Assembly (NCBI RefSeq): GCF_964204645.1
Contig: NC_134026.1
Location: 27,050,650 to 27,114,649 of the forward strand
Source: Tubulanus polymorphus
Lineage: Eukaryota; Nemertea; Palaeonemertea; Tubulaniformes; Tubulanidae
Length of the DNA stretch: 64,000 bases
Direction: 5' to 3'
The notes under the pieces were generated by a model. The model was not told the DNA's origin. It saw only the letters and a list, made by a program, of their open reading frames with translations, and made no database searches. The translations under genes and the position numbers were made by a program. Below are positions 39,186 to 54,316 of the stretch, in pieces (the first letter of the stretch is position 1; each line of letters starts with the position of its first letter).

Positions 39186-40799
39186 TCACTTTTTCTTATC
39201 ATCTTTACACATTATTACATATCTTTGAGCAACTTTCAGAGGTGGTGAATATCCATCTGTGTACGATGTATCCTCAAATAATACCAAATAATCATCATGA
39301 GGCTAAAACCAGAACATATACATGTATCGGTAATTTCAAAAATTTTTGGTGATAAACAATCAGAATTTTTTTAATTACCTTTTTAGGTGTCTCGTGTATG
39401 AGAGCTCGATAAAAGCACGTAGTCTGTGGATATAACGCCAAAACCAGCTGTAAAATGAGAAAAGAAAATAGTCAAATCATTTACCGGTATCTAACCTACA
39501 GACATTTGGTAGTCGGCAACGCTTCTTACAGTTGATTTATTGAACAATGCTTCAGGATCGGTCTCTGGATTAGCTTTCCATAAAGGTAGAGGCACAATTC
39601 GTCTTCTACTTAAAACATGTCTCCTTTAAGAATATTGTTAAATACAAATCAACAATTTTGTCATTAAATATCATTTTTCAGACTGTTACTGTAATAGTTT
39701 CACTTACTCTTTTCCTTCTTCTGCATCAATATCATCCACTTCATACTTATTTGTTGATGTGTTGTATGAAACAACTTCAGCCAGAATCCAATTTTCCTCG
39801 CCATCTGAACTACGAACTCGAGCAGCAACTTTATCACCGGGATTTGCAATGTAGTTATTATCAACTTGTATTGCTCCACACAATGCTGGCGGCCTAAAAC
39901 AGACAAGAAATAAACTTTTTTTCACATGACTAAATGTCAGAAACGAATTATGGTCATTACGTACTTTTCGCCTGATTTTCCAATCCAGAGCGGCAATGTG
40001 TTCGCATTTTGTTGCAACATAGACATTAGGACACCTCTTCTCATTATCTGTTTTGGTCGATCTCCGTCCACTAAAAGAAAAATTCGAAAATCAACATTTA
40101 TCCATTAACATAAGTGTCCTTTAAATAATGCAATGTTTTTCGCCCTTACAATCACTTTTGATAGCTTTGATTTCACTGATCATGTCCAAAGCTCTACGTA
40201 ACATTCTGAAATGAAATACAATTATTCTGTTCATTTTAAAATTCAAAACCTCTTTCACAGAAATCAATAATCTAGAATACATACTCGGTCTCACTTTCAG
40301 CATCTTGTAAAGCAGTAGTATACAGTCCTTTTAGTTTAGTTTTGTAGTACGTAGAAACTAGAAGATAGAAGGATTAAAGTCATGACAATTTAGAGAACTT
40401 TAGTCTGAATACCCACTAATCCTGGGTCACCCCTCCGCAGGAACATCAAGGTTTATAGATGCTAGTCTACCGAGCAAGAATCTCTTACTTTTTTGTTCTT
40501 GCTGCATTCGTTCATGTGTTTTCTGAATATTCAACAATGTGTTTTCTCCTCGATCTCGTTCCTCCTAGAAACCATCAAAGCAATTAGTTCAACGTAGACA
40601 ATCCATTCATATTTAGAGGGGAAAAGCCGGCCGGGGTTATCTTTAAAACTTGAAATGGCAAAATTGCATATGGGTGAAATGAATCTGTGAAGGAATGAAT
40701 ATAGGACTTTACTTTAGTTTGGAAAAGAAGCGTTTGTAATTCTTTCAGCAAGTCTTTGATCTTTGCGGAGTCTCCAGTAGCAGCGTTTACAGCAGCCAT
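39186..40799 (-). CDS. SGF29: SGF29, SAGA-associated tandem-Tudor protein
   Basis: Nine exons: 40713-40799, 40489-40564, 40285-40357, 40150-40205, 39965-40070, 39708-39893, 39530-39623, 39379-39447 and 39186-39302. They give 287 residues in phase (human 293). An N-terminal coiled coil (LLKELQTLLFQTK, YYKTKLKGLYTTA) is followed by LPLWIGKSGEKPPALCGAI. The tandem Tudor domain comes next: GDKVAARV, WILAEVVSY, YEVDDID, LYPQTTCFYRALIH, LFEDTSY and VAQRYVI. The acidic VDDID and the aromatic residues of LYPQTTCFY and LFED form the pocket that reads H3K4me2/3 in the human protein. It is a component of the GCN5/PCAF acetyltransferase module of SAGA and ATAC in the nucleus. Confidence 0.95.
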
Positions 40800-41200
40800 T
40801 CTACCTTAACATACAATAATCAATCCTTGTTACTCGAATCATCGAACTATATGCTCAAATCGAACAATAAAAAACAAAAAAGTTTGTCTCTGGCTCATCG
40901 ACCTTGAGAATATCGGAGAATCGTATTTCACGGTTTTGGCTATAATGATGGAGCTTTAGATTGTTTGCCGGTCTCAATTTTCTGTGAAGATTCATGATTT
41001 AAGACTCTTTATCTAGTCTTAAGTTAATAAAACATGTCGCATATATCTTGGAGATATTTGGTACTCCAAGTAGCATCAACGTATATCATCATCTCTCACC
41101 TTGGTGCAGACAGGCAACCAGTCTATGTGAAACCAATTAACAAATTGATACATCGGCATTCAACATTGTAAACTAAGCAATTGTCTGCAATATTTTCAAC

Positions 41201-41290
41201 GCAAAAGGTTGAAAGCCTGTTTTGGTCGATGGCGAGTGACGTCACTAGTACAAATTCCGAGCGGTTCGAATCCCACAATACGCCAAAATC
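41201..41290 (+). repeat. left copy of 44-bp inverted pair, with tRNA-like A and B boxes
   Basis: Bases 41201-41244 match the reverse complement of 52921-52964 at 43 of 44 positions. The segment includes TGACGTCA, a palindromic CRE. TGGCGAGTGAC (41230-41240) fits a pol III A box, and GGTTCGAATCC (41263-41273) is a perfect B box at tRNA-like spacing. GTTTTGG at 41219 can pair with CCAAAAT at 41283. The T stem is broken, so this is not a functional tRNA gene. It is either a tRNA-derived SINE remnant or the left end of a large transposon. Confidence 0.6.
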
Positions 41291-41903
41291 ACTACGGCCG
41301 CTCTGAGCGCACATCGCATTTCAACGTTGCCGTTTAATAATTGTAAAATAACTAATAATAGTTTAAGTTTTATAAGGGTTAGAAGTACATTGTATTTACT
41401 GCTAGTGTATGTATATATCATGTACGGTTGCGAGAAATCCCTGCCCTGGTTAAACAGTAAGTCCACTAAATCTTTAAATTTTAAGTTGTTTAATGAAACT
41501 ATTATTGTTTTAAATTGTTAAAACTGCAAACTATGGTTGTCGAAGATGCACCTTCTTCACATCCTTTGAAATCCTGGATAGCATCGCTGTCGGCAAAGAC
41601 CTTCAGGTCTGTCTTCAACGGCACATCGCTTTGGAACAAGCGACTACTGTGTTATCAAATCTGAACTAGGTAAAAAAATGTTCCCCAAAAATAAAGACAA
41701 GTAAACGGATTAATTTGAGGTTTGAATGTTTTTGTTTATTTGTTGGTTCAAATCGAACCCTCGTCATCCTGATCTCCATAAATCTAAGAAAAGTATTCGC
41801 ACACTTAAAACAATAAAATACGAGCAATAAGCAATAACATCAGACTGGAGTAAGTAACTTTACTTAATTCACAGATACAATCCTACACAAAACAATAGCT
41901 ATT

Positions 41904-42144
41904 CAGTGGCGGATCCACCCCTCTATTTTTACCGATGTAGCCGCAAATCTATGCGTTACTGAGTAAAAACCGAATGAAATCTTTCTATTAAGTAATGCTC
42001 AGAATGCACCTGCTTGCATCTATTTTTCCAAAAAATTTTTAGGAAGGGTCTTCGCGTTATCGGTGCTTGCTCTGGAATGGCTTACAGCCATCTGTTGTTG
42101 CTTTCATTTGCCCCCCCCCCTTCAAAATGCTGGATCCGCCCCTG
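41904..42144. mobile_element. MITE with CAG(T/G)GGCGGATCCA termini
   Basis: The element opens CAGTGGCGGATCCACCCCT and closes with TGGATCCGCCCCTG, the complement of the same motif. The body is 241 bp and non-coding. Such ends are common in non-autonomous DNA transposons of invertebrates. No target duplication was recognised. Confidence 0.65.
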
Positions 42145-42279
42145 AGTGCAGACAAAATGATCGACAAAGACATACAGAACTCTAAAACAACAGTTAACAA
42201 TTTAAGCAACGATAGACAAAACAGATAGCTGATTACTTTACAAACCTGTTGTCAGAACCTTAATTATTTTTACATGTAC

Positions 42280-42830
42280 ATACAGAGGACTGTTAACAAT
42301 TCAACCAATGAAATTGCGATAGAGATACAGAACATACAGCTTTAACAGTAAACAATGCAACCAATGAAATTGCGATAGAGATACAGAACATACAGCTTTA
42401 ACAGTAAACCATGCAACCAATGAATTGCGATTAACTAAGACCTACGAGCAATTATCAAGTTTGATAATTGCTCGTAGCTAAGACATACAGGACAAACAGG
42501 ACTAACTTAATTGCGATAGACATACAGGACATACAGGATTAACAGTAGACAATTCAACCAACGAATTGCGATTAACTAAGACATACAGGACTAAACCACA
42601 GGACATACAGGACTAACAGTAGACAATTCAACAACCAATGAATTGCGATTAACTAAGACATACAGGACATACAGGACTAACTTAATTGCGATAGACATAC
42701 AGGACTAACAGTAAACAATGCAACCAATGAATTGCGATCGCGATCACAAAGACATACAGGACAAACAGGAATAAACCACAGTAAATTGCGATAAAAAAGA
42801 CATACAGGACTAACTGCAGTAAATATATAG
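42280..42830. repeat. tandem repeat field (minisatellite)
   Basis: Variable units built from ACATACAGGACTAACAGTA, AACAATGCAACCAATGAATTGCGAT and AACTAAGAC recur about a dozen times, with shuffled and truncated copies. A nearly perfect palindrome with 17-base arms (CTACGAGCAATTATCAA and complement, 2-base loop) lies at 42442-42477 inside the field. It sits 3' of the giant gene and inside the left copy of the 44-bp pair, as subterminal repeats often do in large DNA transposons. Confidence 0.75.
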
Positions 42831-43592
42831 GGCCTTAGGAATGCAAAATTCATTCATTTTGTCATTTGTAAACATTCCACAACTTATTTCATTATGTCAT
42901 TTCCAGTTTTCAAAGGGAATTTTCTTAACTTCAGATGCCTCGAGGACATAAACATATAGAAAGATCTGTCCCAAAAAAATGTCAAGTGTCTTTCATAGTG
43001 CAATGGGCCCTGGTTTCCACGTTTATATATCACATATAAAATTCTACAGAAACAATCAATGAATAAGTGAAAATTTACGAATAACAAACAAGACATTCAA
43101 GCAGTTGAGTAAGTTAAAATGGGACCAATCTATATATATTATATATGGATTATACAATTTAATCAGGGACAGCCTTGAACCGAGGTTGATGTGTCCATAC
43201 ACTCTCTTCATACACTCTCTGAACATGCATGTATGTATACTGCTGCCAATTGATGATAAGTCAAGGATGTTGAAGTTCTAGACATGGTCAGAATCATCCA
43301 GAGACATCGGCACGCATCACAATAACTGATGATTTTGCAGTAACCTGTAACATAAAAAATCAAGCGGTAATCTATTCACAAAATATATTTTCCTGAAAGA
43401 AAAAACCTGAAATAGAGCACTATAAACACCAGTGCATATACATCGCTTCTTAACCTTATATATAATCGAGTAAATATATAGGTGACTAAGTGACGGTCAT
43501 TATAGGCTTCTACGTTCACCATGGGAAATGAAAATATTTCTAATGTCAGGGATTCATTCGAAACCCGATCAATAATATTCTATACAAACTAT

Positions 43593-46500
43593 TTAGGAAA
43601 TCGGGTCACAATGAAAACAAAACCACCTGATATGTTCAGGAGGAGCCTCATTGATTGGAGCACATTTCCAATGATACCATCTATGGCAATTATCACATTC
43701 AATTGAGAATGTGGACTTTTTCTTAGGATTAGCATTGCATTTTTTGTGGCAGACAGGGCAGGTTTCAGCAACTAACTGAGAAGGGGTTTTTTCAACTTTT
43801 GATGACAAAAGATTATCTAGTTTCAATTTTGCTAGGTTTTGGAGGCCTGCATTTCCAGGTTGATCTATAAGAATTTCTAATTCTTTTTCAGAATTGGAAT
43901 TATTGATTTCTGTAATAGGAGAACTGTTGAGATAATCATCTCTATTATTATAATCGATTACAATAGATTTTTTCTTATGATGATTATGTTCAATACGAAT
44001 GTGCTTTTGAAGGAATGTTTCACTTGCATATGAATTAATAACCCCATCTGCCCAACAAATAGCACATGAGATAGGTTTCAAAGATGAATGAGAAGTGGAT
44101 ATGTGCCTATCTAGTTCCCTGCGACATGAACAAAGATATGGAGGATTTATTTTGTCTTTAATACAAAAGGAACAGACAATACTTTTTTCAAATAAAACAG
44201 ACTTCGAGTCATTTTTAACAACTGGTATTGACTTAATATCTTTTGGTTTGGTATCTTTTGATTTTTTTGGTAAGGATGATTTATTCTGACTTAAAATATC
44301 TGCTGAAAATTCGATATCATTGCCAGGATCTGGATCAGTGGAGTCTATGGTTTCAATTTCTGATATTTTAGCTTTTTTACCTAGTTTGATAGCAGCATTT
44401 TCAACCATAGCAGAAAAGGATACACCTCTGTTAGCAGGTCTAATTATCTTTCGCCCTCCGTGTCTTGCATTCTCAGCATCTTTAGGCATTGTAACCTTAG
44501 GGCAGTAAGGGTCTATCACTTCAAGTTCAGGAAGGTTTATGGCAACCTGATTGTCCTTGATTGGACCCTCAGCACGCCTATGAGCCATATTGTGAGGTTG
44601 TCGTTTGGCAGGTCGTCCGCTTATTAACTTAATTCCACAGTGGCTTTCATTATGTAAAATACTTAGAATGTGCCCTTTCCGAGCAGCATTGATATCATTC
44701 GAGCTAGCAATGTGGGAATGATCTTTTAACTTATCAATGAGGGTAGATGAAACAGAAATATTTTGTCGAGTAAAATTGTAAGTTGGCAGAGGCTCCACAA
44801 TGTGGAATTTATATGCATCAATTAAAGCCTTCGTTGTGGTTATATTGTTTTTTTGGGCAAAACAGGCAAAAAGATGTTTGCAAAAATATGGTTGTCCAAT
44901 CATTATAAAAGCTTCACAAGTACATATACCTAGTTTCAAATTGATTAAATGGCAATTACCATCTACGTATGAAAGACAATTTTCAGGAACGATTGTAATA
45001 ACGTAATTGAATAAGATACGACTGGATATTGAATCTAAATTTCCTATGTACCTTCGGCATTTTTTTGAAATGTCATATGAATGTTCCTCGGATATTGATA
45101 CTTTATCGGGGAATCTTTCTTCTAAAACATCAAGCTGATTGAATGTATATTGAGTATCACCATTGAAAAAATTATCATTATCTTCTAACCTATTTAAGTT
45201 CTTTCGTGAAGAACTCTTCACAACAAACCAATTAGTTTCTTCATCATATTTTAAAATCTCATTATTCTGTAATAAATCAAAGGCTCTTTTGCAACACTTT
45301 TCTATCTTTTCAAGGTGACGTATATTCTTAACTCGTTGGTCAAGTTGCTTAAATTGGAGATTGTTCATATTTGTCGCTTTGATCTCATCATTAAAAACAT
45401 TTTCAAACAGTAATCGTACAAAAGATGATATCAGTTTATTTAGGTGTCCACTTAAGTAGACATCATCTATTTGTTTGAATTTGCGCTCAGTAATATTATC
45501 AGTTAATAGCAAAGGGTTATTTCTGTTAGATTGGTCTGACTGATAAATTGATTCAGCATTGAATGCCCCAGACCAAATTTGGGAATTAAACCAATTCTTC
45601 TTTAGGTAATCAATAAATAATGTTTTTGTATCTTGCGACATAAGGTCTAAAGAAATATCATTCTCAATAAAACTAATAAATGAATTGGCTATATCAGTTC
45701 TAGAGGAAGCATCCCATGATCTCATAATGCATTTGAAACCAGTTTCTAGAGGCTTGCAAAATAAGCGAAGTTCTTGATTTTCATTCATGAAGCGACGAAT
45801 ACACTGCAGGACATGAAAATTACATAGTACTGATTTAAGATTATTGTCAGATGCTCCTTGCTTTAGACTTGCATCTTTATCATGTTGTACAAAAGGACAA
45901 AATCTAGATGTTGATGAACATGGCTTGATTCTGAAAAAACCATTGCCATCATTAAATATATAGAATTCAGATGGATGATTACATTTTTCGTCTTTACATG
46001 GTGTATTGGCTAGAACTAACTGGATGGTAGTTGCATGAGTAGCCCCCCCTTCATCACTACTAATTGATGCAGCAGCAATACGTCCTTCATTTTTGTTGTC
46101 TGCAAAAGTTACAAATGAAGTTTTGAATTTCCACGAATTGAAATCATGTTTCACGTCAATACCAATGACAGATTGTCCAAAGTTGGATAAATGTTCCAGA
46201 GAACGAGGATCAGAGAGAATAATGTGATAATTACGTTTGAGTGTGGCATCCCCTCGTTGAAATAAAAGGACAGATTCATAGTTACCCTCTAATAATTTTT
46301 CAGTATTTCTCCAATCAGAACTTAGAATAGGTATTTCGTCTTGAGATTTCATATGTAATTTTATCGAAGATTTATCAATATATTTCAATCTATTTGAAAT
46401 TTGATCTAGGGTATGGTCATGACCGGCGCCATCATTTACATTTGATACATGAAGGTTATTGTGAGCATTGGTGGCAGAAAGAACCTTCATTGCTGTGGCT

Positions 46501-49500
46501 TTCATCATGACTCTATTTTCATCCCATCTATCTCTAGTAGATAAATTAGGTCGCTTTTTAATTTGTAAAGGAATATTGTCATGATATTGACCATTAAGTG
46601 GTTTGCTGAAGATTCTCCACTTGGATAAATCAGTACTAAATAATACAAGTTTCGTTGCCCAATAACACATAAAATGAGGGTGAATTAATTTTTTTGGCTC
46701 AAACTGCTGCCTTAACTTCACAGGACGATCACGTTTATTCTTCAGCTTATAGTTGTAACAGTTGGAACAAAGTGTTTCACCATCAGCATTTTTCCTCCAT
46801 TTGTTAGACATGGTAATGGAGCAATGAATACATTGTTTATCATTTAAAACAACGTCAATTTGACATGAGGGACAATTAGTGATGTTACTGGACATATTCA
46901 ACTTTGAAAGATAATATCCACATGATGATTTACAAACTGAAGACTTTGACGAACATTTTATGAGCATTTCTGCAGCCACAAATTGAGAAGTATCCTCAAC
47001 AATTGGCTCAATAAATTCAAATTTATTATCTAATCTATGGGTTTGCCAATTCTTTTTTAATGTTAAGGAAGCTTTCATCGTTGTCTGGTTACCAACAAAT
47101 GAAGGCCGCACATTCTTATGCAGACGAACTGTTTTTGTAAAATCAAAAGTGAATCTATCGAAATAATATTTTGTGTCAGCACCAGTCATTACTTCCCCAT
47201 TTTCAACCCATTCATCACTAAGTGGATTCTGGTTGTTGAGGTATTTCTTGATAGTGTCAATGGCTACCTGGTCATTTGTACCTTGGTCTGTACAATGAAA
47301 ACTTTTATACTTCGTCTTACTGCCAGTTGAATGAAAAGCAACTTCAAGATAATGCTTTCCTCTCCTGATGCGATGGGAGATAGTAGTTTTAGAACCATTA
47401 ATATGGGAAGTTAATGGTTCAGCTGAATTTAGAGTTAATGAGGATTGAGGATTCAAAATTGAGGATGTAGATTCAGGTGTAGATTCATTATTCGAAATTG
47501 GTGTAGATTCAGGTGTAGATTTAATAGTCAAAATTGGTGCAGATTCACTATTCGAAATTGGTGTAGATTCATTAGTCAAAATTGGTGCAGATTCACTATT
47601 CGAAATTGGTGTTGATTCAGGTGTTGATTCATTAGTCAAAATTGGTGCAGATTCACTATTTGAAATTGGTGTTGATTCATTAGTCAAAATTGCTGCAGAT
47701 TCATAATTCGAAATTGGTGTAGATTCAAGTGTTGATTCATTATTCAAAATTGGTGTAGATTTAGATTTGGCTGTAGTTAAGACTGATTTGCTTTTTTTAG
47801 GGGCAATATAAGAGTCTGACATCTTTAATTCAGAACTAGCTAGTGTATTATTTGACTCAGTTGATCGTTTATGTCTCTGTCTGCGAGATAATCGTGATAT
47901 CTTAGAGAAAGTAGTACTATTAGCAGTAGGTTGAGATGACTTTGAGAAGAGTTGAGTAATATCAATTAGATGTTTCATAAGCCAATTAATCAATATCAAT
48001 CTAACAAAATCAGAATAGTTAGAAATGTTCTTAAGATAAGATAATTCATTGGGAGATGAAAATACACTTGAAATATCCTTTTCATAATAGGTTGCAATGC
48101 AAGCACCAATTAATGTAGCAGGGCCACAGACAGATGAACATGATTGGAGTGGGTAATAACTAGTACAATTATTACTACATACATGCACTGAATTTTCAGT
48201 AACAAAATGAGGATCATGGAGGTGGATATAAACAGGATCAGGGCAATTCAAACCTTTCAAAACAGATCTTAAATGATTTTTAAATTCCCTTGGACAATCC
48301 CATGCTAGTGTATCAGCATAACACAGTTTGTTACTTTTTGGGTAAAAAACTGCTAGTGCATAATGATTGGCAACAACATGTCCATAAGAATTTAGAAATA
48401 CGAAATCGTTTTGGGTGCCAACATGCAGGAAAAAAATTAGTTTATCACAACTTATGAGTGGATTAGGACCGAATCTTTTATATAAATTTGAAACATATTT
48501 CTTAGCATCAAATGTAAGTGGCATCATAAATGCATGAATATTACAGTACTGTTCATTTATCATAGATGCAAAAGCATTTAACACAGATCCTTCAAACCAT
48601 TTTTGATTAGTCATCGTCTGAAGTTCTGATACAGATACGCTATTATTATTACCAACTGGAAATTGTTGAGAGGGTTTTAAGGAAAAGAGCATATTTGAAA
48701 ATGCTTGAATCTGTTCCCAATCGACTGAATCAGTGGGGCTTAAAGGCTTACTATTTACCCAAAGATTCATGGCAAAAAGATCTTGTTGTTTGGTTTTAGC
48801 ATAATGTAAGAAAAGAAACCTATTAATCTGATCAATAGAATAGCAGCCTGTATCGAGTCTCACATGGATATTAATGGAAGGGTCACGGACAATCCTTGAC
48901 TGCATCTGTGCTTTTATGTCCTCCAACTGATTTTTGTGGGGCATAGTGGGGGCATCATCAGCCAAATGACATGAATTAGACATGTCACAAATTCTGAATG
49001 ACGTGACCTTTGATGGCATAACAGGAGGAATTTTCAAAAACTGATAGTCATTGAGGCACATTTCTGTTGGATTGTAACTAAAATTTCTTCTACATACATG
49101 TTCATCATCAGAATCATTCTCATCACTATCATCAATTATGATTGGTTCGATACCTCCACCACCTGTGATACTTAGCTGTTTTTTGTTTTCCATCCAGCTA
49201 TCTTCCTGCATCTTTAATCTTTCTATCCTTTCTTTCGAACTATCTTCCTGCATCTTTTCTGCTTCCTCTATCGTTCCTTCCGAGAAATTGTCACAAGCCG
49301 CGTCCTTTCCTTCTTCCTCCATTGTCCGCCTGAAATACACATTATCAACTCACTTTTTTTAGACATATGAATAGATAGAGTATGAAATTACCCATATAGG
49401 CCTAACATAAAACATGGGTATCTCTGAGTCATTTGCATTAAGTCATTTAGATTTGTAGGTACTAAATTAATTGAATTATGTTGTACTTACATTTCAGTAT

Positions 49501-52500
49501 GGTTTAAACTAACATGGTCTAGAAGATCTTTCCAATTGGTGAATTCAACTCCGCAAAAACATGTCGAGTCAGCAGGATCCGTCTGTGGATGAATAACCTA
49601 ATGTGGAAGAGCACATTAATCTGTTTTTGCTTCAACATCTAAGCAAAAATAACAAAAATGAACCCGCGTCTCGCAGAAAGGGCATCAAACTTACATGTTC
49701 CACTGACTTCCTTTTTCTGTTAAATCTTTTAGTATTGTGACAACTTCTATTGTAGCATCCCTGAATATGAAAACAAAGCTTTACAGCATAAATCATACCA
49801 ATACCAATGAATTTCTATAATTTCATTTCGAGAAACATATTACTCACGTTCTTAGTCTGATAAAAAGGAGTAAATAATTGAGGCTTTAAACAAATAGCAA
49901 CACCAGCCACATCAATTTTAGTCATGTACTGGAAAAAAAAGACAGATTTGTGCATGCACAGCCTTTAGGTAATTGTGAAATAAAAGTGACCAAACTAATA
50001 TTAAATCATAAGTTCTTGAGATGATATGTACCTGGTCGAATGTGAAAAAGGCTCTTTGATCTTCACAACAGAATTGTTTCCTTGTATGATGCGCAACGTC
50101 AAAACTGCTATACTGGATTGAAGGATACAAAAAACTGTTAAAATATATCTAACTTTATAAAGATAAATCACGTACAAATCACTTAGGAAAACAACTTTAC
50201 CACTATTGTTGAATCATCCCATGCTCTTGCTTGATCATCCTTCAATTTGTTTTTTGCTATCAGCTATCAATATGATTCATTAATTCAATGCAAGGATTTT
50301 GAATAAAGTGGTTTCGTATTCAAGTTATAAAAACTAATTGCAAATCATTCATTTTCTAGGATATCAATGCTAAATGATTACCTTTCGTCGATGGACTGCT
50401 CTACTTCTTTGCATCTTTTCAATCTCATATGGAAAGTATTGAGGGCACCTGATTAAGAATCATTCATTATTTCCAGTACAATCATAAAATTTATGTAGTT
50501 TGCATACCTGGTAATTGGATAAAATAATGCAATTCTACGTACATTTCATCTTCATTTTTCAATAGCAGTAGTTCCATTATCCTGTTATTTATGAACTGAT
50601 TTCCCTTACGGCTGGGGTGTAACAAGTCAGTCCTAGATCACAAAATTTAGAAAAAAACAAGTTAGTTTAAATCGCGAAAAAATGCACATAACCTACTGGG
50701 CTTATTAAGATTAAACGATTACTTACGGTGAAAGGAGATCTCTTGAGAAGTGAAAATCAACGAACTTTACACCAAGTGTAAAGCATTCGCGGTGCAGCAT
50801 TTCATTGTAATGAAATATTTTTGTGTCAGCATCGAAACTTTAAAAAAGAAAGAAATTTAAAAATCATTACATCGATCATAAATATAGTACTTCAAGAAAA
50901 ATCTATTCTTGATACTTACTCATCACATCGAGGAAAAAGAGCTGGTACAATGATGGTCCCAGTACATTTATAGAGCAACAATCGAATTAATTCAACGTGT
51001 CTTCGCAGAACAATCTCAAGCGGGACATCACGCGTCATATTATTTGTTCCAACATGGACGATTAGTTGTTCCACATTCAGCATCTTCACCTTTTTCAATT
51101 CTGTAATATACAACTAATCAGTAACCCAATGAAAATGAACAATATAAATCAGTACTGAACCGAGAAATTACCTTCCATCAATGTTTCAATGGTTCCTCCG
51201 GGGCACACGATCCTTGTCCATTCAAATAAGCCTACACCATCTAGCCCAGCATACTTTAAAATGCTGTCTGCTACGAGACCAATACGCTACAAAAAAGATT
51301 ATTTGTCAGTCTCAGGCCAATATCACAGGGAGGTGTGAGAGAGCACACTGGTTACTGTAAGACCCTACTACATGCAAAAGAAGTGACACATATATGTATA
51401 TCAATGTGATAGAATTGATTGAAAAAATTGTGCATAATAGTAGCTAGTGCCCAAAAATAGAACACAGTGTTATTGAAGTGAAAATTTCTAAAATCCTCTG
51501 AAGCGGTGCTTATTTGGTAGCTACATGGGTATTCTAATTGAATAAGCATAAAGATAAGCGTGCACACACAGTAGCCTATGCATAAACAAGGGCCAGTTTC
51601 ACCTTCACCTAAAAGTCCTGCAGTGTGAAGACTAACTTGTTCACCTAAACCACCTCTACCAGGCTGTGGAAGGCCTAACATCAGGCACTAAATTAAAAGA
51701 TTCCTCTAAATCAAATTATCTATAAACATCCTCTTAATTGCAGGCAGACTGATTCAGGGAGGGGTGCAGCCCAAAATAGGGCATACATATCAGTATCATA
51801 TATAATTAAAAATCAAAAGGGCACCAGATCATCAGAAAACATAATACCTATATTTTGGAAGTAGGCCTACAGAGAACATGTTTTGGAATATAAGCTTTTT
51901 AAAAATACTTGTTGATATTTTTAATTTTTCCTTTAAATTTCATTGCGACTTAAAAGTTTTAAGGGGTGTACACCCCTGTATACTCTCCTGATCTGCCCCT
52001 GAATTGCCACTTAACAAAATTTCTCAGCTTAATTGTTGGCTAACTAGCTCAGTGAAACTGGGACCAGACCTAATGCATACACCCTCAGTGGCCAGGGCCA
52101 GGATTAAACAGTTAGGCTACGTATATAAATAAAGGAATGAAAAGTACTTATCCTGAAATTGGTTAGGCTATCTATCTGCAACAAGAAATACATTTTCATT
52201 GACTCTGAATACAGGGAACTACCATTCTTCTGTTTCGAGGCCTTAAAATTTATTGTTTATTTTTTGTTGCTGGATTTGGAATGGTTGTTGGAATATTTAA
52301 GGCCTAGTAGGTGGTGACTGTGTACGGGCAACATAGGCCTATACCCAGTGGCATGGCAATGGCATGCCACTGGGTACCCACTACTGCACTATAGTATACT
52401 GCCTACGGCTACTGCGACTGGTGGTTCGGTTGGCAGAAATTACTTTTTAACATGGGGGGGGGGGAGGGGGGAAGTAAGCGTGGATGAAGACAAATTAATT

Positions 52501-52801
52501 TAGCCGAGTAAGTAGCAAGCAAGTAAAGTAGTGGCAGTACAGTAGGCCTAGCGACAATGTGAGTGTGGTGGTAACGTGGCCGTGGTGGCAATAACAAGAC
52601 TCCAAAACTGGCAAAAGCCAAAATTAAAAAGCCCTGCCGCCGCGCGGTCGCGACGCCTCGCCTGCACCACCGTGTACGATCCTCGCGGCGTTCACCAGTG
52701 TTACCCAGTGAGTTTTTTATAATCTTGCAATCTACCTCTTTTTTCAAACCAATATTCCCACCAACTGGTCCGGAGACAAGCTTAACACGTTCGGAAAACA
52801 T
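43593..52801 (-). CDS. giant composite transposase gene: SGNH hydrolase, Ulp1 protease, MULE-type core, SWIM and PHD
   Basis: Exons 51172-51286, 50920-51100, 50727-50837, 50543-50632, 50382-50448, 50201-50263, 50032-50112, 49848-49928, 49695-49760, 49491-49597 and 43593-49329 join in phase (2,232 residues). A plausible first exon at 52736-52801 adds MFSERV..KKE. The last exon is 1,912 codons with no stop. In order: SGNH/GDSL fold (VADSIL, VHVGTNNM, DLLH); C2H2-like finger (CFCG..H..H, exon 49491-49597); Ulp1-type protease (His 48363-48365, YAD, Gln, Cys 48126-48128 in VCGPA); S/T/P repeats; GATA-like finger C-X2-C-X17-C-X2-C (from 46832); MULE-type core (GIDVKH, HDKDASL, LCNFHVLQCIR, TERKFK); SWIM CXCX11CXH (from 44924); two C2H2-like fingers (from 44174); PHD finger (from 43760). 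Several modules could be host-captured. It is either a transposon gene or a domesticated derivative. Confidence 0.8.
47445..47775 (-). repeat. in-frame tandem repeat coding an S/T/P/E tract
   Basis: Units of 24 to 48 bases built on ATTGGTGTAGATTCATTAGT and relatives encode repeated ESTPISN and SESAPILTN blocks, roughly eight to ten copies. The tract forms a flexible linker between the Ulp1-like protease and the GATA-like finger. All copies keep the reading frame. Confidence 0.8.
51590..52065. mobile_element. MITE-like element of the GGGCCAGTTTCAC family
   Basis: The left end GGGCCAGTTTCACC and right end GTGAAACTGGGACC are inverted copies and match the ends of the element at 18248-18378. The interior is interrupted by a second element. 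Confidence 0.5.
51752..52003. mobile_element. nested MITE-like element
   Basis: Left end TTCAGGGAGGGGTGCAG and right end GATCTGCCCCTGAA are imperfect inverted repeats. They resemble the CAGGGGCGGATC ends of the element at 41904-42144. It lies within the 51590-52065 element, implying later insertion. Confidence 0.45.
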
Positions 52802-52973
52802 GATTCACAATCTTTTAATCAACAGCCAGCAAGAATACACTTGACAGAAAATTCAAATTCAGCGGTTAACCGTTAAAAGTGAGTTGTTTAGCTGTGGGAG
52901 TAACAAAAAGGCGATCTTGATGACGTCACTAGCCATCGACCAAAACAGGCTTTCAACCTTTTGCATTTTCAAC
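52802..52973. promoter_or_regulatory. head-to-head promoter region with CRE
   Basis: Only 172 bases lie between the proposed start of the giant gene (minus) and the TLCD3 start (plus). The region contains the right copy of the 44-bp pair (52921-52964), including TGACGTCA at 52921-52928, a consensus CREB/ATF site. The repeat ends 9 bases before the TLCD3 ATG, so it must form part of that gene's 5' UTR or promoter. Confidence 0.5.
52921..52964 (-). repeat. right copy of the 44-bp inverted pair
   Basis: Reverse complement of 41201-41244 with one mismatch (T for G inside the A-box-like TGGCTAGTGAC). Going inward, a degenerate B-box-like TTGTTACTCCC follows at the position where the left copy has GGTTCGAATCC, so similarity extends beyond 44 bases. 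It may be a terminal inverted repeat or a SINE copy. Confidence 0.65.
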
Positions 52974-54316
52974 ATGAATTTTGTTGACTTTTTATGTTAT
53001 TTTGCTTTTGGGTCATTGTTTTTTCCATTAATGAATTTGGTAACAACATTTTTAGTCAGGAGGATAGACAATCAAATAGATGAAAGCTCTGTCAGTGATA
53101 TTAGTGTCAAGTAAGTTTCACAAAAAAGGATCCATCAAATCCGGCCATATCCAATCCACTCCATCTCCACTGATGATGTCAATAAAAGTCGTCGATGGTG
53201 ATACAGTTTGACAGAGTTTGCACTTCCAATTTTGAATCAGTATCTAGTATCACCCCACACTATGTAAAAAAATGTCGATAGAAATTGATACGCGTCCTAT
53301 ATTCTAACCGATTGATGAATTGTTTCTATTATTCTCTCAATTTCTTTCAGATTGGTTTCAGCATTTCATGGAATATTGGGCTGCATTATTGGAGTTGCTA
53401 TTATGAGTTCATGTAAAAATGATATCATCCATTCCAGGTAGTGTCTAGTCTAGTGAGAATGGCCACAACATCAATTTGGGGCTTGGCATTTTTTATCCCA
53501 ATCCTCAAAAAGGATGGAGCTCTGAGCCCCTTGATTCAGCCACCCATGGTTAGTAATTCTATAATTTCTAGAAATTGGTTGACAGAAATCTATGCTGCAT
53601 TTGGGTTATCATATATGGTTTATGACGTATTTGCTATGTATGTTACACACATTCTCGACAATCCTCAAATCAAGAAGTGGCAACTGCACAAAAGAATTTA
53701 CCACTACATACATAAAAATAAGCTGATTTTGTTGCATCATACTGGTTTACCATTCATCTATGTTCCAGTCATTTTTGTGAGTAGAAAATCAAGCAATATG
53801 TCTACAATTACCGTACCGGGTATACATATATTTCACTTTACCCAGGATTACAAGATCTTTGATTTTGTCTTAGTATTTCAGAAATGGAAAAGGTGATTTC
53901 TTTATTGGTACTTTCTTCACAATGGAAATGGCTGTTCCGTGTATTTCATTTAGATGGATCATGCTAAGGGTAATTAGATTACCATTCATAGATAAACAAT
54001 TTGATCAATTTTGGTCTAACAATCATATATATGTCATTATATTTTTCAGCTTGGAAGAACAGATGGTTTAGTATATGTCATTAATGGTTTTCTGATGTTA
54101 CTGTTTTTTACTATATCCAGAATATTAATTTTTCCATTTCTCTATTATGTGTACAGTTGTTCAAGCGAAATGACTATACTACAAGTGGTGTTTACCATTC
54201 CAGTCAAGTGTAACATCGGTTGCTTGATTTTGTTAGTTCTGCAGGGATACTGGTGGATCCGCATGGTCTTTGGTTTCTGTAGATTTGCTAAGAAAATTAT
54301 AAATAAAAGGTTATGA
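52974..54316 (+). CDS. TLCD3: TLCD3 (FAM57) TLC-domain protein
   Basis: Five exons: 52974-53110, 53351-53437, 53572-53776, 53874-53969 and 54050-54316. They are in phase and give 263 residues (human TLCD3A 257). The order LVSAFHGILG, then MVYDVFAMY, LLHHTGLPFIYVPV, GDFFIGTFFTMEMAVP and SRILIFPFLYY is that of the TLC (TRAM-LAG1-CLN8) family, FAM57 branch. Five or more membrane helices are apparent, starting with one at residues 5-25. FAM57 proteins are ER/Golgi membrane proteins linked to ceramide synthesis and membrane lipid composition. Exon 4 must begin at 53874 (acceptor TTAG); the next AG downstream breaks the frame. The A or B paralogue cannot be decided from this window. Confidence 0.9.

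Follow-up and report, generated by a model that had tools for sequence, protein, structure and literature searches.

The 64,000-nucleotide stretch of Tubulanus polymorphus DNA analysed here (contig NC_134026.1, positions 27,050,650 to 27,114,649; referred to as the window) contains a complete transposon of 11,764 bp at 41201-52964, which encloses a gene on the minus strand. The element is very probably a Rehavkus-like member of the Mutator superfamily (Mutator-like elements, MULEs), a cut-and-paste DNA transposon that is autonomous and has moved recently. As proposed in a preliminary description of the sequence, the best reading of the gene is a composite MULE-type transposase with SGNH hydrolase, Ulp1 protease, GATA-like, SWIM and PHD modules, which is supported by profiles, folds and motifs. 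The ends of the element and the repeat array inside it were located as follows:

41192-41200, no strand: left target-site duplication, ATTTTCAAC, the same 9 bp as at 52965-52973
41201-41244, no strand: terminal inverted repeat on the gene's 3' side, 44 bp, 43/44 identical to the reverse complement of 52921-52964
42289-42823, no strand: minisatellite between the stop codon and the 3' terminal repeat (Tandem Repeats Finder, TRF; 1089-1623 from the element start)
52921-52964, no strand: terminal inverted repeat on the gene's 5' side, pairing with 41201-41244
52965-52973, no strand: right target-site duplication, ATTTTCAAC, a perfect 9-bp match to the left copy

The terminal repeats were refined to 44 bp from a 47-nt inverted repeat with arms 11.7 kb apart. 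Copies of the element were searched for in the species' own genome (267.8 Mb in 77 contigs), and the copy counts are lower bounds. The left end (first 120 bp) was detected at at least 32 places with 96% identity or more; at 27 of these places all 120 bp were the same as in the window. For the right end, at least 29 places matched with 97% or more, the alignment spanning the 264 bp completely or almost completely. The target duplications were counted at 26 of the 32 left ends; the C13 copy was excluded due to a contig edge, and C6:13252076, C9:7283865, C3:15190240, C4:9905862 and C1:18917779 were also outside the count. A perfect 9-bp duplication, lying exactly at the start GCAAAAGG and the end CCTTTTGC, was determined at 19 of the 25 other insertions, and at 20 of 26 sites once the window insertion is included. 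The duplications were imperfect at C4:18603162 (2 mismatches), C2:12921929 (3 mismatches) and C1:1591498 (one base out of register). At three further sites without a perfect duplication, C1:25465981, C1:25277910 and C4:12474101, the end was truncated or displaced.

The last-exon frame was full-length and free of stops at at least seven places, the window included (7/7 such copies keep the frame). All 12 exons could be read without stops in the window, L065, L066, L067, L068 and L069; in L064 exons 2-12 were intact, exon 1 being covered by the identical right end of L064. The DNA of L065-L068 was 99.78-99.98% identical to that of the window over 9.37 kb. In an eighth copy, L070, a part of exon 12 was missing. 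Shorter copies of about 2.1 kb and up (the distance between paired ends) carried the same terminal sequences, as would be expected for deletion derivatives. The unit number of the minisatellite differed among 12 copies, with the GACATACAG motif present 11 to 29 times; the motif had 0 occurrences in the 52,210 bp of the window beyond the element.

Recent mobility is shown by the defined ends, the 9-bp duplications and the near-identical copies, and the recent activity suggested in the preliminary description is thereby borne out. A domesticated host gene could also have twelve exons, a long frame that stays intact and relatives in other phyla. Against the terminal repeats, the target duplications, the seven intact near-identical copies and the shorter copies with the same ends, domestication is almost inconceivable, and at this locus it was ruled out by the ends, duplications and copies.

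Length differences between copies were observed at intron 1. L069 and L070 had roughly 550 extra bases at one shared place of this intron, and by all appearances the L069/L070 type and the window type are two length variants. In the copy at C2:19705419-19722669 the distance from exon 2 to the right end exceeded that of the window copy by about 5.5 kb, as if by an insertion into intron 1.

The gene model (52801-43593, minus strand) consists of 12 exons joined in phase with GT-AG sites and encodes 2,254 aa. Eleven exons joined in phase had been described before; the phase was confirmed and the count had to be corrected. The exons, followed by the domains of the last one, are:

52736-52801, minus: exon 1, first 22 residues (gene model; equivalent exon in L063)
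51286-51172, 51100-50920, 50837-50727 and 50632-50543, minus: exons 2-5, SGNH hydrolase (Lipase_GDSL_2 profile)
50382-50448, minus: exon 6 (gene model)
50201-50263, minus: exon 7 (gene model)
50032-50112, minus: exon 8 (gene model)
49848-49928, minus: exon 9, contains the start methionine of NCBI isoform X2 (gene model and NCBI protein)
49695-49760, minus: exon 10 (gene model; present in NCBI model P0001)
49491-49597, minus: exon 11, C2H2-like motif C-x-C...H-x4-H (kept in the diverged L063, 55.6%)
43593-49329, minus: exon 12, 5,737 nt, stop-free internally
47949-48734, minus: Ulp1-type cysteine protease, H329, D346, Q402, C408 (fold and residues)
47476-47761, minus: S/T/P/E-rich linker with in-frame 24/108-bp tandem repeats (TRF; translation)
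46704-46835, minus: GATA-type zinc finger (profile against a GATA-1 chain, E 3.9e-13)
45486-46157, minus: RNase H-type DDE core, D1065-E1288, with D1157 and C1176-x2-H1179
44874-44924, minus: SWIM-type C-x-C-x(11)-C-x-H (motif residues)
43608-43760, minus: PHD finger, TAF3-like, residues 1864-1914 of the stop-to-stop frame (Pfam 24.1 bits, cut-off 24)

Exon 12 is free of internal stops, as had been stated earlier, and encodes Ulp1, S/T-rich repeats, the GATA-like finger, the DDE core, SWIM, C-terminal zinc-finger-like motifs and PHD. The C2H2-like motif of exon 11 had no match in the Pfam search. The nearest database protein was LOC141914437 isoform X2 of T. polymorphus with 1,995 aa, which equals residues 260-2254 of the model with 3 differences, the same three as in L066 and L067. 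When the N-terminal region was compared with long database proteins, P0001 was the sole match, through its exon 9-11 part.

The MULE signature is a DDE triad with C-x2-H between the second D and the E. The corresponding residues of the window protein were invariant in all eight proteins of the alignment A1, the window's included, and the same was determined for C1476, C1478, C1490 and H1492 of the SWIM motif. ZSWIM1-3_RNaseH-like matched 4/8 members of A1 with the best E of 0.031. Pfam SWIM had no match on the window protein, reached E 0.14 in one A1 member and stayed under the cut-off in the relative P0010 (17.1 and 19.6 bits, respectively). The best fold match of the core, ISCth4 (6xgx), was weak and was obtained with a low-confidence structure model that does not establish the fold; it is a bacterial enzyme, presumably of the IS256 family, unlike this eukaryotic element.

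The active-site order of Ulp1 (C48) proteases is His-Asp-Gln-Cys. The Ulp1 fold was recovered for the protease region, and H329, D346, Q402 and C408 were likewise invariant in 8/8 aligned proteins. The S/T-rich repeat linker separates Ulp1 from the DNA-binding part. The Pfam score of the GATA finger was under the cut-off. The PHD region was matched to the TAF3 PHD with E 3e-9.

Several observations weigh against the composite reading. Pfam MULE (PF10551) had no match at E 1 in 8/8 A1 members or in pieces, and Peptidase_C48 had none in the window protein, its pieces or 8/8 A1 members (E 1). The relative P0009, which lies outside A1, has lost the second catalytic D. Finally, the only NCBI model found starts in exon 9 and leaves the SGNH part out, and therefore this part may be optional or a separate product. 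The profile searches divided the modules named in the preliminary description: Lipase_GDSL_2 and PHD were above the Pfam cut-offs, GATA was below, and MULE, C48 and SWIM were unmatched on the window protein. MULE and Ulp1 had been named there as the profiles on which the reading depended. Pfam returned neither of them; the core was recognized by its motifs and the weak fold match, and Ulp1, for want of a Peptidase_C48 match, was assigned by its fold and residues and is treated as a diverged member.

The element was filed with the Mutator-like elements because of the 9-bp duplication, the terminal repeats, the DDE core and the SWIM motif. Target duplications of 8-11 bp are given for Mutator-like elements (PMC6446971). 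The same source distinguishes Rehavkus by a transposase that contains a PHD finger and by a minisatellite preceding the 3' terminal repeat, and its Table 1 lists a 9-bp duplication for Rehavkus. The PHD finger, the minisatellite ahead of the 3' terminal repeat and the 9-bp duplication are the reasons for calling the present element Rehavkus-like; terminal repeats within 26-400 bp and one open reading frame (ORF) are further shared traits (PMC6446971). The placement is by described traits and not by a comparison of transposase sequences. In contrast to this nemertean element, Rehavkus was reported from insects/arthropods and annelids only, and the available part of its description does not mention SGNH, Ulp1 or GATA, all of which are present here (PMC6446971).

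Membership in a different superfamily whose domains are similar, for example Zisupton/KDZ or Ginger1, was also considered. Ginger1 transposases have Ulp1 and, in one family, PHD (PMC2836005), and Zisupton (KDZ) is, similarly to the present element, a eukaryotic cut-and-paste transposon with terminal repeats. However, the duplication is 8 bp in Zisupton compared with 9 bp here (PMC12730594), and Zisupton/KDZ membership was rejected on this ground. The CxxH and SWIM motifs and ISCth4 as the best, if weak, fold match also speak against this alternative, which is regarded as very unlikely.

SGNH hydrolases are marked by Ser, Gly, Asn and His blocks. In the translation of exons 2-5 these blocks read ADS, PGG, GTNN and DLLHPS, block I being ADS and not GDS, and the exons scored 36.7 bits with Lipase_GDSL_2 (cut-off 32.9, Pfam). 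The structural neighbours were weak: the OSK domain of Oskar (E 0.008) and the ORF1-encoded protein 4c1b (E 0.043), which we take to be an esterase-type ORF1 protein of a long interspersed nuclear element (LINE). Because of the weak Oskar match, an inactive binding role of the SGNH part is possible.

The SGNH exons sit inside the terminal repeats. Their 748-bp DNA was found full-length in at least 22 places with 93% identity or more, and one additional genomic place matched it over 719 bp. Besides the seven intact copies, the genome search revealed SGNH upstream also in two diverged loci. The first, L063 (C7:9.33 Mb), contains an equivalent exon 1, SGNH exons and exon 11, followed by the Ulp1 exon, with GT-AG sites at equivalent positions for exons 1-5, 11 and 12 (by eye); the stretch compared stops ahead of the expected transposase core. 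Its SGNH part was 59.6% identical to that of the window (106/178 aligned pairs) and its Ulp1 side 34.1% (94/276), and of the two the SGNH part is therefore the one that has changed less. In the second, L061/L062 (C6:15.72 Mb), the transposase was 47% identical to the window's, and four exons upstream of it, in phase by eye, encode a different SGNH protein, with 32.7% identity to the window SGNH over 55 pairs. Lipase_GDSL_2 scored 38.4 bits in L062 and 37.4 bits in L063. To judge from these sequences, the SGNH part belongs to the transposon and is old.

Two side observations concern the diverged loci. In L063 the start of the Ulp1-side exon was present twice, at 1-693 and 1204-2331, with a cysteine-rich repeat in each. 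At 740-1261 of L061 a 173-aa open frame, which presumably resembles a GIY-YIG (Penelope-type) end, was found beside the diverged copy.

MULEs tend to pick up fragments of host genes (PMC6446971), and the SGNH and Ulp1 parts might be such captured pieces, functionless passengers on which the transposase does not depend. This is highly improbable in view of the SGNH part of L063, which is kept above the Ulp1 side, the different SGNH at the same place in L062, the retained serine, GTNN and D-x-x-H motifs of SGNH and the invariant Ulp1 residues. Alternatively, two products could be formed by an alternative promoter, splicing or start, one being a separate SGNH protein encoded by exon 1 through roughly exon 8 and the other a transposase that starts in exon 9. 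Isoform X2 of NCBI opens at the exon-9 methionine, a methionine stands at the matching place in L063, and esterase LINEs keep the enzyme in a separate ORF1, which is a precedent by analogy only (PMC4120745). However, exons 1-12 all join in phase with GT-AG sites, and L063 repeats much of the layout; two products are rather doubtful, with some chance left to them.

As a tentative proposal, less probable than its negation, there may be a lineage of animal DNA transposons whose transposase polyprotein includes an SGNH enzyme acting on esters or lipids; the enzyme would be required for transposition and would parallel the LINE ORF1 esterase. In the main reading of the element, the DDE core would cut at the 44-bp ends and insert with a 9-nt stagger, whereas binding of the element ends would be the task of the SWIM, GATA-like and C2H2-like fingers. 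The PHD finger may dock on histone tails, and at the insertion complex the Ulp1 part may free the transposase or host factors from SUMO or a similar tag. Transport, assembly or protection of this complex could be the role of the SGNH part, which would be either a genuine esterase or a binding module like that of Oskar.

Kaonashi is the plant MULE name given for Ulp1 carriers. Hydra, lancelet and plants have Mutator transposons described as carrying Ulp1, and the present MULE-type transposon with Ulp1 resembles them. A figure legend of the same paper refers to alignments of the Ulp1 and PHD parts of transposases from Ginger1 and Mutator; an SGNH or GATA part, present here, is unmentioned in the available part of the text (PMC2836005). 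The novelty claimed in the preliminary description is accordingly narrowed: MULE with Ulp1, and with PHD, was known before, and the SGNH and GATA parts are the candidate novelty. No DNA transposon with an SGNH domain was found in a literature search conducted mostly at the level of titles and abstracts, with Repbase outside its scope. CR1 and L2 LINEs carry an esterase-type ORF1, and PHD is also common in LINE ORF1 (PMC4120745). The SGNH-type esterase borne by a transposon is the common trait; the LINE enzyme is encoded by a separate ORF of a retrotransposon, whereas here it lies in one gene model with a DDE transposase (PMC4120745).

The gene appears to join a cutting enzyme with a SUMO-type protease, a lipase-like hydrolase and fingers that read chromatin, and it could show how transposons borrow host chemistry. 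If SGNH is required for jumping, ester or lipid chemistry would enter DNA transposition, to our knowledge for the first time. The parallel with the esterase-bearing LINEs would then become testable, as two unrelated kinds of mobile elements would share an enzyme type, each with PHD readers. With their exact ends, the intact, near-identical copies offer a ready laboratory system in which to study why SUMO-type proteases, esterases and chromatin readers occur in transposons.

Ten related database proteins were found, including the host's own, two from Patella caerulea and one from Oratosquilla oratoria. The limpet and mantis shrimp proteins suggest a wider lineage, known here from proteins alone. 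In P0007 and P0008 the N-terminal extension is a different one and contains repeated PVPAPRK motifs, and therefore the N-terminal module may be swapped between lineages.

The 26 insertion flanks were GC- and CpG-rich in comparison with the window outside the element and with 28.5 kb of other loci (GC or CpG reached by 0/5,000 resamples). The comparison was repeated with 16 genome-wide stretches of 2 kb as the background and after removal of the three sites whose end was truncated or displaced, which left 23. The CpG of the 23 sites was unremarkable against this background, being matched by 1,098/10,000 resamples, and their GC was weakly raised (reached by 113/10,000). The same sites still stood out against the window background (0 and 1 of 10,000), and the window is therefore a poor background. 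Open frames next to the sites were no commoner than in controls (9/23 and 46%, respectively). PHD-directed insertion is not claimed.

On both sides of the window insertion, starts of possible genes were observed. An SGF29-like gene lies on the minus strand with a likely start codon at 40799 (first exon by eye) and Pfam SGF29_Tudor in 39707-40090. A plus-strand frame opening with ATG begins at 52974, directly after the right target duplication. Without the element, the starts at 40799 and 52974 would be about 400 bp apart.
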